Origin: Bacteroidota bacterium | GTDB lineage: Bacteria; Bacteroidota; Bacteroidia; Bacteroidales; Prolixibacteraceae | Direction: 5' to 3' | Length of the DNA stretch: 64,000 bases | Assembly (NCBI GenBank): GCA_024278975.1 | Contig: JAJRSD010000076.1 | Span: 1-64,000, forward strand | Shown here: positions 6,781-13,773 of the stretch, in pieces | Numbering within the stretch: the first letter of the stretch is position 1 | Layout: every line of letters begins with the position of its first letter | Program-made: the position numbers and the translations under genes | The notes under the pieces: generated by a model | Database searches by the model: none | What the model saw: only the letters and a program-made list of their open reading frames with translations | What the model was told of the DNA's origin: nothing

Positions 6781-8604
6781 TTATTCGTCTAAGTTTTCAA
6801 TCCGCTTAACACTATTGATTCCTTTAATCTTTGTTAACCGTTCCATTAATTTGTCTAAATCGTCGGTATTGTGGATATACAGAAATAGTTCGCCAGTAAA
6901 AATTCCCTCGTGTGCATCGAAATGCAGCGAACGCATATTAATATTATTCTCTTTAGATATTATGGTTGTAATCTGATTTGCAATGCCTAATCTGTCGAAT
7001 CCATCTAACCTGAGCCGGGTTAAGTACGACTGTTTTTTAAATTTTGTCCACTCGGCCTCAACAATTCTATCGCCTTGGTTCGATAAATATTTAGCCAACT
7101 CCTTGCATCCTGCTTTATGAATATTCACATGGTCGTCGGCACTCAAATATCCAATTACCTTTTCTCCCGGAATAGGATTGCAGCATTTTGCCAGCGAAAA
7201 TGAAATATTATCCTGAGCTTCTTTTAAAATAAATAGTTTTTTATTATCAATTTTCCGAGTGGGATCGTCTTCTGTTTCGTCGTCTTTATTTTTATTTCCA
7301 AAAGTGATATTCCAATATTTTACAAGTTTACTTTCTGATTTCTTACCCAGAATTTCGTCAATATTTTTCAGCTCTAAAAATCCCATTCCAACTTCGGAGT
7401 AAAGTTGGTCTTTATTATTTAGGTTGAAATGCCCAATAATTTTTTTCAGATTATTTGAAGTTAGCGGAGCATTTGCCTTTTTTACCGCCTCGTCAACTAT
7501 TACCCTTCCTTTTTCGATGTGCATGCTTTTTTCGAGTTTAAAAGCTGCTTTAATTTTTCCACGTGCTTTTGCCGAAGTAGTATATTGTAACCACTCGAGT
7601 TTTGGAGTTTGGTTTTCAGATGTTAATATCTCTATCTGGTCGCCACTTTTTATAACATGGCTAACAGGAACGAGCTTTAAATTTATTTTTGCACCAATAC
7701 ATTTATTACCTAAATCGGTATGTATTTCGTATGCAAAATCGATAATTGTCGAATTTTGCGGCATCGAATACATATCTCCTTTTGGTGTAAAAACATTTAT
7801 TTCGGTTCCGTATAAGTTCAGTTTAAACTCATCCAGAAATTCAAATTCATCGGTATCCTGGTTTTTCAGAACATCGCGAATTCGTTCGAGCCACGTTTCC
7901 AGTTCACTTTCGTAGGTGCTAATATCTTTGTAACGGTAGTGAGCGGCAAAGCCGCGGTCGGCAATTTCGTCCATGCGTTCTGTACGAATCTGAACTTCAA
8001 CCCATTTTCCCTGTGGACCCATAACTGTAACATGCAGCGACTCGTAACCATTTACTTTTGGTAGATTTATCCAGTCGCGAATCCGGTCGGGTTTGGGTCT
8101 GTAAATATCTGTAACAATAGATAAAACATCGAAACATTGTCGTTTTTCCGAAAGTTCGGGTTTTGCCTTTATAATTATTCGAATGGCAAGAATATCGTAG
8201 ATCTCGTTAAATGTTACCCCCTTTTTTTGCATCTTCTGCCAAATAGAGTAACTGGTTTTTAGCCGGTGCGTTACTTCGCAGCTAAAATCTTCGGCTGCAA
8301 GTTTTTCGTTTATTGGCTTTATAAATTTGTTTACAAGGTAGTTTCGTGTCTCTTCCTGGTTGTGCAACAGATAAATTATCTGATTATGTTCTTCGGGATG
8401 TTTATATTTAAAACTCAACTCTTCCAACTCGGTTTTAATTGCATACAAACCAAGCCGATGCGCAAGCGGAACATAAAGGAAAAGAGTTTCTCCGGCAATT
8501 TTAATTTTTTTGTGGGGCAACATCGAGTCGAGTGTTTGCATATTGTGCAAGCGGTCGGCAATTTTTATGAGAATAACCCGCACGTCATCCGAAAGGGTCA
8601 TCAA
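6781..8604 (-). CDS. RelA/SpoT homologue, 3' frame: rest of hydrolase, synthetase, TGS and ACT domains
   Basis: This frame carries most of a bifunctional (p)ppGpp synthetase/hydrolase. It starts with LSDDVRVILIKIADRLHNM, the late hydrolase motif with the DRLHN block. The synthetase follows: RLKTSYSIWQKM, YDILAIRI, then VNGYESLH and VEVQIRT. Next come a TGS domain (IDFAYEIHTDLGNKCIGAKIN) and a C-terminal ACT domain (residues ~535-605). The only starts are a TTG at 8604 and ATG at 8601, both inside the hydrolase domain, so this is not a natural N-terminus. Joined to the upstream frame by a -1 slip on the A7 run it gives 738 residues, the usual length of a Rel/Spo enzyme. Expressed alone it would keep synthetase activity but lack a working hydrolase. 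Confidence 0.9.
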   Translation of the reverse strand: MMTLSDDVRVILIKIADRLHNMQTLDSMLPHKKIKIAGETLFLYVPLAHRLGLYAIKTELEELSFKYKHPEEHNQIIYLLHNQEETRNYLVNKFIKPINEKLAAEDFSCEVTHRLKTSYSIWQKMQKKGVTFNEIYDILAIRIIIKAKPELSEKRQCFDVLSIVTDIYRPKPDRIRDWINLPKVNGYESLHVTVMGPQGKWVEVQIRTERMDEIADRGFAAHYRYKDISTYESELETWLERIRDVLKNQDTDEFEFLDEFKLNLYGTEINVFTPKGDMYSMPQNSTIIDFAYEIHTDLGNKCIGAKINLKLVPVSHVIKSGDQIEILTSENQTPKLEWLQYTTSAKARGKIKAAFKLEKSMHIEKGRVIVDEAVKKANAPLTSNNLKKIIGHFNLNNKDQLYSEVGMGFLELKNIDEILGKKSESKLVKYWNITFGNKNKDDETEDDPTRKIDNKKLFILKEAQDNISFSLAKCCNPIPGEKVIGYLSADDHVNIHKAGCKELAKYLSNQGDRIVEAEWTKFKKQSYLTRLRLDGFDRLGIANQITTIISKENNINMRSLHFDAHEGIFTGELFLYIHNTDDLDKLMERLTKIKGINSVKRIENLDE

Positions 8605-8614
8605 TATTTTTTTA
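8601..8614 (-). other. A7 slip or frameshift site in the RelA/SpoT gene
   Basis: The minus strand reads TTA AAA AAA TAT TGA TGA in the zero frame; the A7 run is the complement of T at 8607-8613. The heptamer A AAA AAA is a classical -1 slippery sequence. A one-base back-slip gives AAA ATA TTG ATG ACC and joins the two halves exactly where homologues read LTLKKILMTLSDD. One extra A in the real DNA would do the same. No clear downstream stem is visible. Confidence 0.6.
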
Positions 8615-8996
8615 ATGTTAGTGCCTGTCGCGAGTCAAAATCGCCTGAAAGTTTTGTTAACCCGTCAACAATTCTGGCAACTTTTCCGCCAAACATATTT
8701 TTGATGTCGGATATCCTGTATTCGGTATCTTCAACCACATCATGAAGTAACGAAGAAACAATTGAAGTGGCACCCAAACCCAAATCTTTTGCAACAATTT
8801 TTGCCACTGCAATTGGGTGAATAATATATGGTTCTCCCGACTTTCGTTTTATTCCATCGTGTGCAGCATTGGCAAACCGAAATGCCTTCTCGATGCGGGC
8901 AAGGCGCTTTTCATCAAATTTCTCGCTAACCTCTTTTCTGAAGTCTTCGTAGCGATCTTCGATAAGTCGTATTTCTGCTTTTGTAAAATGCTGCAC
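8601..8996 (-). CDS. RelA/SpoT homologue, 5' frame: N-terminal half of the (p)ppGpp hydrolase domain
   Basis: The 131 residues start at an ATG and match the N-terminus of Rel/Spo proteins. GEPYIIHPIAVAKIVA supplies the first metal His, and SSLLHDVVEDT carries the HD pair and ED. Then FGGKVARIVDGLTKLS leads to DSRQALTLKK. At that point the zero frame reads TAT TGA TGA, while family members continue as ILMTLSDDVR, which is encoded in the -1 frame. The hydrolase site is therefore split between the two frames. Reading slips, a lost A in the run, or a true nonsense break are all possible; see the slip site entry. Confidence 0.88.
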   Translation of the reverse strand: MQHFTKAEIRLIEDRYEDFRKEVSEKFDEKRLARIEKAFRFANAAHDGIKRKSGEPYIIHPIAVAKIVAKDLGLGATSIVSSLLHDVVEDTEYRISDIKNMFGGKVARIVDGLTKLSGDFDSRQALTLKKY

Positions 8997-11901: not shown

Positions 11902-13005
11902 ATGGAAAATTTTATTGTTTCAGCACGAAAATACAGACCCGATACATTCGAGACAGTGGTTGCACAGGCATCTATAACCAGCACATTAAAGAATGCCATT
12001 AAAAGTAATCAGTTGGCTCATGCTTATCTGTTTTGTGGTCCGCGAGGAGTTGGTAAAACCACCTGTGCCCGTATTTTTGCAAAAACCATAAATTGTACAA
12101 ATTTAACTACCGAAAACGAAGCTTGCAACAAGTGCGAATCGTGTACTTCGTTTAATAGCAGCCGCTCTTTTAATATTCACGAGTTAGATGCAGCATCAAA
12201 TAATTCGGTCGACGATATTCGAAATCTCACCGATCAGGTTCGCATACCTCCGCAAGTTGGAAAATATAGCGTGTATATTATCGATGAGGTTCACATGCTT
12301 TCGGCACAGGCTTTTAACGCATTTTTGAAAACGCTGGAGGAGCCGCCAAACCATGCAATCTTTATTTTGGCAACCACCGAAAAACACAAAATCATTCCCA
12401 CAATTTTGTCGCGTTGTCAGATTTTCGATTTCAATAGAATTGGTGTAGCTGATATTACCAGTCATTTAGAGTTTGTGGCAAAAAGCGAAAGTGTTGAAGT
12501 TGAAAGTGAGGGGCTGAATATTATCGCACAAAAAGCCGACGGTGCAATGCGCGATGCACTCTCTATTTTCGACCAAATTGTAAGTTTCTCGGGGAAATCG
12601 ATTACGTATAAAGATGTAATTACCAACTTAAATGTGTTGGATTACGACTACTATTTCAAGCTGGTTGACCAGTTTTTGAAAAATGATGTTACTCAGGTAA
12701 TGATAACATTCAACGATATTCTGGTGCATGGTTTCGACGGACATCATTTTATTACCGGATTAAGCAGTCATTTGCGCGATGTTTTGGTTTGTAAAGACAC
12801 GGCTACAATACAACTGTTAGAAGTTGGCGGCGAAATTAAAGAGAAGTACAAAAAGCAGGCTTTGGCAGCCGATAGTAGTTTTTTGCTCGATGCACTTTTA
12901 ATAAGTAACGAGTGCGATAATCAATATAAACTGAGTCAAAATAAACGACTGTTAATTGAACTCGCAATTATTCGGATAGCACAGCTAACCTTAAAAAAAA
13001 AATAG
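11902..13005 (+). CDS. dnaX: DNA polymerase III clamp-loader subunit, gamma-like frame
   Basis: The zero frame encodes 367 residues of the DnaX ATPase that loads the sliding clamp during replication. It has the P-loop FCGPRGVGKTTCARIFAK near residues 44-61, a zinc module with Cys at ~72, ~81, ~84 and ~87, the Walker B box VYIIDEVHML, and the sensor/arginine-finger stretch TILSRCQIFDF. The last 130 residues form the helical collar. The frame ends TLKKK-stop on an A10 run. That is where domain III (collar) ends in E. coli DnaX, so this product has all parts of a gamma subunit and none of the tau tail. The next frame continues the protein after a -1 slip. Confidence 0.93.
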   Translation: MENFIVSARKYRPDTFETVVAQASITSTLKNAIKSNQLAHAYLFCGPRGVGKTTCARIFAKTINCTNLTTENEACNKCESCTSFNSSRSFNIHELDAASNNSVDDIRNLTDQVRIPPQVGKYSVYIIDEVHMLSAQAFNAFLKTLEEPPNHAIFILATTEKHKIIPTILSRCQIFDFNRIGVADITSHLEFVAKSESVEVESEGLNIIAQKADGAMRDALSIFDQIVSFSGKSITYKDVITNLNVLDYDYYFKLVDQFLKNDVTQVMITFNDILVHGFDGHHFITGLSSHLRDVLVCKDTATIQLLEVGGEIKEKYKKQALAADSSFLLDALLISNECDNQYKLSQNKRLLIELAIIRIAQLTLKKK

Positions 13006-13017
13006 CTGACGTTAGCT
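12983..13017 (+). other. A10 slip site of dnaX with flanking inverted repeat
   Basis: The run of ten A is 12993-13002. Zero frame reads TTA AAA AAA AAA TAG; a -1 slip reads AAA ATA GCT GAC and continues for 210 codons. The run contains overlapping A AAA AAA heptamers. It is flanked by AGCTAAC (12983-12989) and GTTAGCT (13011-13017), a perfect 7-bp inverted repeat. A smaller stem AGCTG/TAGCT lies just after the run. These could aid ribosomal slipping, or the long A run alone could cause RNA polymerase slippage as in Thermus dnaX. Confidence 0.6.
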
Positions 13018-13634
13018 CACCCACCGAAATTTTAGAACCTATTTTTTCAGGGAAAAACCTCCCGGAAGAGAATGATGTTAAGGAGAAAAAAGCTCCGTAC
13101 ACACCTTCCGTAACTCCAGCAAAAGAACATACACCTCCAAAACGAATTGTTAAACGAACATCTAAATATGTTAGCACACCCTCGATAAAAGCAGCTTTAA
13201 AAGGAGAATTTAAAGACGATAAACAAGAGCTCTCGGCAAAGCAGCAATTCGAAATGCATACAAAAGCCGATGAATTTGAGGAGTTTAAAAAGGAAGATCT
13301 GGAGTTGAAATGGAAGGAGTTTTTGACCCGGCTTGATGACCGTCCGAATTTACAATCGACGCTTGCGCAAGTGCCGAAATTAAAAGACAATTCTGAATTA
13401 TACCTCGAAATTGACAACTCGATTCAAAGCAATTTAATTACTTCTATAAAGCCAGAGTTAGTATCTTTTTTAAGAAGAGAGCTACGAAACTCGAATATTG
13501 AACTAACTGTAGAAGTTACCGAAAATATCAAAAATCGGATTATTTATACTGACAACGATAAATTTGACGAAATGGCAAAGAAAAATCCAAGTCTAAAATT
13601 ACTTAAGCAAAAGTTTAATTTAGATTTTGGATAG
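13002..13634 (+). CDS. dnaX: DnaX tau-specific C-terminal part, reached by -1 frameshift
   Basis: This frame has no natural start and continues dnaX from the A10 run: IADVSSPTEILEPIF, then a low-complexity linker rich in Lys, Pro and Thr (residues ~15-75). After that comes the C-terminal domain from LKWKEFLTRLDD to LLKQKFNLDFG, typical of DnaX tau tails in Bacteroidota. Joined to the 367-residue front it gives 577 residues. In tau this region binds the replicative helicase and the polymerase alpha subunit. No second start with a good ribosome site is present; an internal ATG at 13254 would give only 126 residues. Confidence 0.85.
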   Translation: MADVSSPTEILEPIFSGKNLPEENDVKEKKAPYTPSVTPAKEHTPPKRIVKRTSKYVSTPSIKAALKGEFKDDKQELSAKQQFEMHTKADEFEEFKKEDLELKWKEFLTRLDDRPNLQSTLAQVPKLKDNSELYLEIDNSIQSNLITSIKPELVSFLRRELRNSNIELTVEVTENIKNRIIYTDNDKFDEMAKKNPSLKLLKQKFNLDFG

Positions 13635-13655: not shown

Positions 13656-13773
13656 TGTCAAGTCAATCGTGTAATTCTAGAACGTCATGCTGAACTCAAT
13701 TCAGCATCTATATTTTAAGCAGTAGATTCCGAAATGAATTCGGAATGACGAGCACGAAACATTATACTTGACA
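13656..13773. repeat. 118-bp near-palindrome with two internal hairpins, REP/MITE-like
   Basis: The outer arms TGTCAAGT (13656-13663) and ACTTGACA (13766-13773) are complementary. Inside, CGTC/GACG at 13683-13686 and 13747-13750 pair. They enclose two perfect 8-bp hairpins with 5-base loops: ATGCTGAA/TTCAGCAT (13687-13707) and ATTCCGAA/TTCGGAAT (13726-13746). The folded shape is a cloverleaf. It sits between the convergent dnaX and rsmD genes, a common site for dispersed palindromic repeats, and may also end transcription from both sides. Confidence 0.65.

Follow-up and report, generated by a model that had tools for sequence, protein, structure and literature searches.

The dnaX gene in a stretch of 64,000 nucleotides from a member of Prolixibacteraceae (here called the window; GCA_024278975.1, contig JAJRSD010000076.1, positions 1 to 64,000) is divided into two frames at a run of ten A. 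The split raises the question of whether the gene is damaged or gives two clamp-loader proteins by recoding and, in the latter case, whether the frame is changed during transcription or translation. In E. coli, both the short γ and the long τ subunits join the clamp loader, and τ alone bridges it to the polymerase and the helicase. E. coli dnaX uses a programmed -1 ribosomal frameshift on A_AAA_AAG (PMC3711429, PMC5009743), and in Thermus dnaX transcriptional slippage occurs on A9 with both other frames shut (PMC5009743, PMC1088944). A reversed two-ORF dnaX was reported by Antonov et al. in 2013 for 17 genes in 12 genera, all of them -1 in the DNA and nine with A10, and slippage was predicted (PMC3711429); a 2016 review repeats this form and describes Thermus (PMC5009743).

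The initial annotation of the window pointed out that the polarity differs from that of E. coli, with the short form in the zero frame and the long form reached by the slip. This holds but is not new, as the reversed layout was already published in 2013 (PMC3711429). What is new, as far as our searches show, is the depth to which the site is conserved and its indifference to the DNA-encoded frame. In particular, a literature search of titles and abstract openings, with most subscription papers outside its scope, returned no other report of mixed dnaX phases in Bacteroidota.

The dnaX locus and its two frames

The zero frame of dnaX ends in ...LTLKKK-TAG, i.e., TTA-AAA-AAA-AAA-TAG, on a run of exactly ten A, and the -1 frame is open from 13,002 to 13,631 for 210 codons, with its stop ending at 13,634. 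If the reading frame moved to -1 where the run ends, the product would thus have 367 + 210 = 577 residues, and the tail frame translates without a stop; both the 367-residue zero frame and the 577-residue joined product of the initial annotation were reproduced. The features of the locus are as follows:

11,902–13,005, forward strand: dnaX zero frame of 367 codons, γ-like (clamp-loader ATPase and following domains), with its TAG at 13,003–13,005
12,987–12,989, forward strand: Thr363 codon, ACC, in 33 of 33 sequences where Thr is conserved in the genus
12,990–12,992, forward strand: Leu364 codon, TTA (the codon spans 12,991–12,993, i.e., the letters before the run and the first letter of the run), in 35 of 35 genus sequences
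12,993–13,002, forward strand: A10 run, the proposed RNA-polymerase slippage site, found in same-genus relatives
13,003–13,009, forward strand: TAGCTGA, overlapping stops that shut both non-τ frames (TAG when the run has 10 A; TGA when it has 9 or 12)
13,002–13,634, forward strand: τ tail in the -1 frame, 210 codons plus stop, with a linker and a conserved C-terminal region under purifying selection

The part of DnaX encoded before the run (the N part) matches positions 3–354 of 355 of TIGR02397 (439 bits; cut-off, 250) and positions 1–365 of 614 of the full-length DnaX model PRK14971 (728 bits; cut-off, 685), and residues 4–288 match solved E. coli γ/τ chains with an E of about 1e-64. The tail matches positions 429–612 of 614 of PRK14971 with 93 bits, which is under the whole-protein cut-off because the tail is a fragment, as expected. 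The description of this region as a typical τ C-terminal domain rests on the PRK14971 match and on conservation among the tails of Bacteroidota; however, no Pfam domain was recognized in the tail, and a comparison with solved structures gave nothing better than E 0.2. The window's genome contains a single dnaX-length match and two weaker matches, both within one 402-codon frame at 31–36% identity, which is presumably holB.

A search for repeats 3' of dnaX gave nothing above chance. A terminator-like stem, ATGCTGAACTCAATTCAGCAT, lies at 13,687–13,714, approx. 50 bases past the τ stop, and is followed by a T-rich stretch; three terminator-like sites of this sort are found in the region vs. 1.6 expected in shuffles.

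Conservation and selection within the genus

Thirty-six genomes of the same genus were searched. One (G026) gave no dnaX-length match and in another (G023; locus L038) the contig stops short of the run, leaving 34 informative relatives, all of which carry A9–A11 at the same codon: A10 in 31, A11 in two (L031 and L037), and A9 in one (L015). The comparison of run and stop in close relatives that had been suggested from the window alone finds A10 with an adjoining stop in these 31 loci (TAG in 30, TAA in one). An identical A10-TAGCTGA is present in another genus of the family (L090) and in a MAG of Sunxiuqinia (L210), which is also a member of Prolixibacteraceae.

When the window is included, the stop after the run is TAG or TAA in 35 of 35 genus sequences, and a TGA (34 sequences) or a TAA (one) shuts the third frame two codons further along. 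Thus, the combination of a run of at least nine A with near stops in both non-τ frames, which is of the Thermus type, is found in all 35. Both non-τ frames are shut within six codons in 34 of the 34 genus loci vs. only 1–2 of 34 at offsets of 20, 40, 60, and 80 codons.

The codons that lead into the run are equally constant. Of the 30 conserved Leu positions, only Leu364 has an invariant codon, TTA in all 35 sequences; likewise, of the 15 conserved Thr positions in the genus, only Thr363 does. Across the 35 sequences, normalized synonymous entropy is the lowest of 276 windows at conserved codons 358–364, the next lowest being the gene start, and nearby synonymous sites vary while the pre-run codons and both off-frame stops stay fixed. 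Purifying selection acts on both parts of the gene, the N part and the tail. In the tail, dN is 0.007–0.105 and dS 0.093–1.77 in seven pairs of genus relatives, and dN is 0.24–0.41 in five pairs with the window, for which dS exceeds 2.6 or has reached saturation.

Long A-runs are otherwise scarce in open reading frames. The dnaX run is the only run of at least nine A in the window's 51 ORFs, vs. 5.2 expected under synonymous-codon shuffling. In ORFs taken from 400 kb of a complete genome of the genus, there are four such runs (one of them in dnaX) vs. 23.9 expected, and three runs of at least nine T vs. 9.1 expected in the same kind of shuffles. DNA slippage could also contribute to the avoidance of long A-runs in ORFs.

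Recoding at the A-run, with γ from the zero frame and τ from the slip as the initial annotation proposed, is supported by conservation in the genus, purifying selection, and the shut frames. Judged by these comparisons, the selected recoding site in dnaX is real, and the run is kept by selection, most likely because imprecise transcription lets a single gene encode both the short and the long clamp-loader subunit.

Phases of the τ frame across Bacteroidota

For a wider survey, 257 distinct dnaX loci were collected, and 251 were retained after six with fewer than 300 bases following the N part had been dropped. About 100 of the 142 order-level matches were fetched, nearly one per family in listing order, as were 40 of the 146 phylum-level matches, nine of which (L201–L209) were picked for short open frames. 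A run of A9–A13 at or near the γ/τ boundary is found in 182 of the 251 loci, a fraction that is not an unbiased prevalence because of the nine loci picked for short frames, and the wide detection interval used for the run places it further into the linker in some of them (e.g., L105, L118, and L229). In an evenly drawn phylum listing, 45 of 146 matches have an open frame of fewer than 480 codons (counted by eye, with the window's genome included and one probably cut by a contig end). In the remaining 69 of the 251 loci, Bacteroides among them, there is no run of nine or more A at the boundary; thus, the cassette is not universal. Relatives with an uninterrupted frame and no A-run had been named as a case that would speak against recoding. 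Within the genus, only the two A11 relatives are uninterrupted and these keep the run; further away in the phylum, many loci are uninterrupted and the 69 loci are run-less.

The 182 run-bearing loci do not share one phase. Relative to the start codon, the τ frame is in phase in 100, -1 in 74, and +1 in 8, some of these calls resting on draft or metagenome assemblies; the phase-0 count includes L097 and L115, in which the τ frame breaks off soon after the run, and a short one, L148. In six of the 100 phase-0 loci, the sequence past the run amounts to fewer than 150 codons. On a FastTree phylogeny of the first 345 residues, from which the run was left out, at least 30 phase changes are required vs. 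a mean of 64 (54–72) for shuffled phase labels, which indicates that the phase is inherited yet often changes. Among the 52 run-bearing loci from genomes of at most 10 contigs or from NZ_ isolate records, there are at least nine phase changes, or seven when L015 and L031 are left out. Two Aquimarina isolates differ, L281 being in phase 0 and L283 in phase -1.

Outside the genus, both other frames are shut within six codons in 122 of 148 run-bearing loci, and at least one is open beyond six codons in 26 of 148. In a narrower non-genus set, both frames are shut in 117 of 142 loci vs. 11–16 of 142 at control offsets, and among loci that lack a run of seven or more, both are shut within six codons in 8 of 62. 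Up to codon 345, the 251 genes contain no run of nine or more A in 259,785 bases, and the 100,249 bases lying 200–600 bases past the boundary contain six. The boundary run is also found in 10 of the 18 genes from outside the genus that have at least 55% G+C and is therefore not a mere product of AT-rich composition.

It is likely that many Bacteroidota keep an A9–A13 dnaX cassette in which the DNA frame is near-neutral, lineages drifting among the in-frame, -1, and +1 forms since the run randomizes the message pool. Slippage and the wrong-frame stops, rather than the genome, would then set the γ:τ ratio.

In the stretch from -30 to +150 around the boundary, A6G is found in 14 of the 69 run-less loci vs. 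0–2 in four upstream windows, and A7–A8 in 12 of 69 vs. 0–4; shorter slippery sites may be in use in some of these genes. Six run-less dnaX loci (L119, L216, L220, L223, L228, and L245) carry a GGGC-nnn-GCCC-like palindrome, or a near form of it, at the γ/τ boundary, directly past the DnaX N part, and four of the six bear Bacteroidaceae or Prevotellaceae names. The palindrome may be a different cassette or may have arisen by chance.

RNA-polymerase slippage and ribosomal frameshifting

The initial annotation left the choice between ribosomal and transcriptional slippage open; the comparisons favor slippage of RNA polymerase and are less favorable to a ribosomal -1 shift. As far as can be read from sequence, the locus is very probably a dnaX gene with two products, conserved in this form and operated by slippage of RNA polymerase. 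Through slippage on the A10 run, transcripts would differ in how many A they carry. Those with 11 A, or with 8 or 14, would then direct the synthesis of τ, of about 577 residues, while all others, including faithful A10 copies, would stop no more than three codons past the run and yield γ, of 367–369 residues. Shifts in both directions at one gene have been put forward as a sign of transcriptional realignment (PMC3711429), and the dnaX genes of Bacteroidota display both directions. Since the τ frame occurs in three phases, a ribosomal -1 shift cannot serve all lineages, whereas RNA-polymerase slippage can; such slippage also accounts for ten rather than seven A and for the shut third frame.

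Programmed -1 ribosomal frameshifting on A_AAA_AAA before TAG, an event like that of E. coli with the outcome reversed, is an unlikely explanation. The window's own phase is -1 and its run holds the heptamer A_AAA_AAA beside the stop. Moreover, the 2016 review notes that a Chlorobium dnaX may have signals resembling those of E. coli (PMC5009743). However, a ribosomal shift would not serve the phase-0 and +1 lineages, and the constant shift direction expected of an E. coli-type event is not seen among the 182 run-bearing loci. Seven A would suffice for it, but 31 of 34 relatives retain ten, and it gives no reason for the third frame to be shut in 35 of 35 genus sequences. Individual stretches downstream of the run are a little more stably folded than their mononucleotide shuffles (mean z of -1.16; 9 of 34 below -2), but RNAalifold predicts no conserved pair, and thus no conserved hairpin, in the 80 nt after the run of 34 oriented genus sequences. 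Upstream, a Shine-Dalgarno (SD)-like 4-mer is found in 7 of 34 genus loci vs. 0–8 at eight control offsets and in 17 of 144 other loci vs. 3–26. Given the folding of individual stretches and these motifs, ribosomes may make some contribution.

The window's dnaX may be set beside three known systems. Like E. coli dnaX, it would serve as one gene for γ and τ, with an A-rich slip site at the same domain boundary; in E. coli, however, the zero frame encodes τ and the shift gives γ, and an upstream SD-like element and a hairpin are used (PMC3711429, PMC5009743), whereas in the window's genus no conserved hairpin is predicted and SD-like motifs stay within the control range. With Thermus thermophilus dnaX, the window shares an A-run at the boundary, near stops in both other frames, and proposed slippage (PMC5009743, PMC1088944). 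The Thermus DNA encodes τ in the zero frame, while that of the window encodes γ, and slippage has been measured in Thermus but is here proposed from sequence; the 100 phase-0 loci among the 182 share the Thermus layout. The window also resembles the two-ORF dnaX genes of Antonov et al., in which the zero frame is the short form, the τ tail is -1 at the A-run, and the frame transition is conserved in relatives, as it is here in 31 of 34. The 2013 account comprises 17 genes, reported as -1 only (PMC3711429); the present survey follows the site across one genus and its phylum and includes τ frames in phase, at -1, and at +1, with stops closing the two other frames.

Assembly error, phase variation, and separate proteins

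A homopolymer split also calls for a check against error, i.e., the loss of one A from an A11 run through sequencing, assembly, or a private mutation. Two same-genus genomes (L031 and L037) do have A11 and one uninterrupted frame of 578–579 codons, and a neighboring gene carries a lesion of this kind. The spoT/relA-like gene at 6,781–8,996 on the minus strand is split into two overlapping frames at an A7 run, with the junction at about 8,601–8,615. When 24 same-genus genomes were searched with the spoT-like N part, 21 close orthologues were found, and 21 of 21 have a single open frame of 738–750 codons; a private lesion or error is therefore present 3–4 kb from the dnaX run. By this comparison, the spoT-like split arose either in this genome alone or during assembly. 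The dnaX split differs, since the same A10 with an adjoining stop recurs in 31 of 34 informative relatives, including 11 of the 13 same-genus genomes of at most 10 contigs. The A10 of the relatives refutes error as a general account, error in the window itself is very improbable, and, on the relatives' evidence, the A10 split of dnaX is not an assembly error. The A11 relatives themselves retain the run and both off-frame stops, which fits slippage.

Toggling of τ by DNA-level phase variation, with A10 and A11 interchanging within a population, has equally little to recommend it: the genus does include A9, A10, and A11 loci, but the run length is nearly fixed there, and loss of τ from an essential replication gene would be hard to live with. 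That γ and a newly started tail are two separate proteins is scarcely credible, since an in-frame ATG at 13,254 does open a 126-amino acid C-terminal ORF, but 84 tail codons precede it, the window has no ATG, GTG, or TTG of the tail frame at the stop, and the A11 and phase-0 relatives join both parts directly.

Implications for dnaX expression in Bacteroidota

Because the site is conserved whichever frame the DNA encodes, the mechanism lends itself to a direct test with the natural phase classes: under RNA-polymerase slippage, A10 and A11 genes should have similar γ:τ ratios, whereas under a ribosomal shift the ratios should be very different. The need for γ is debated (PMC5009743), and the site would show RNA-polymerase slippage to be a long-lived route to it. 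If the message pool is indeed randomized at the run, annotation may mistake τ for a truncated gene or a pseudogene, and dnaX in much of the phylum would be expressed via an error process that has been tamed by selection.
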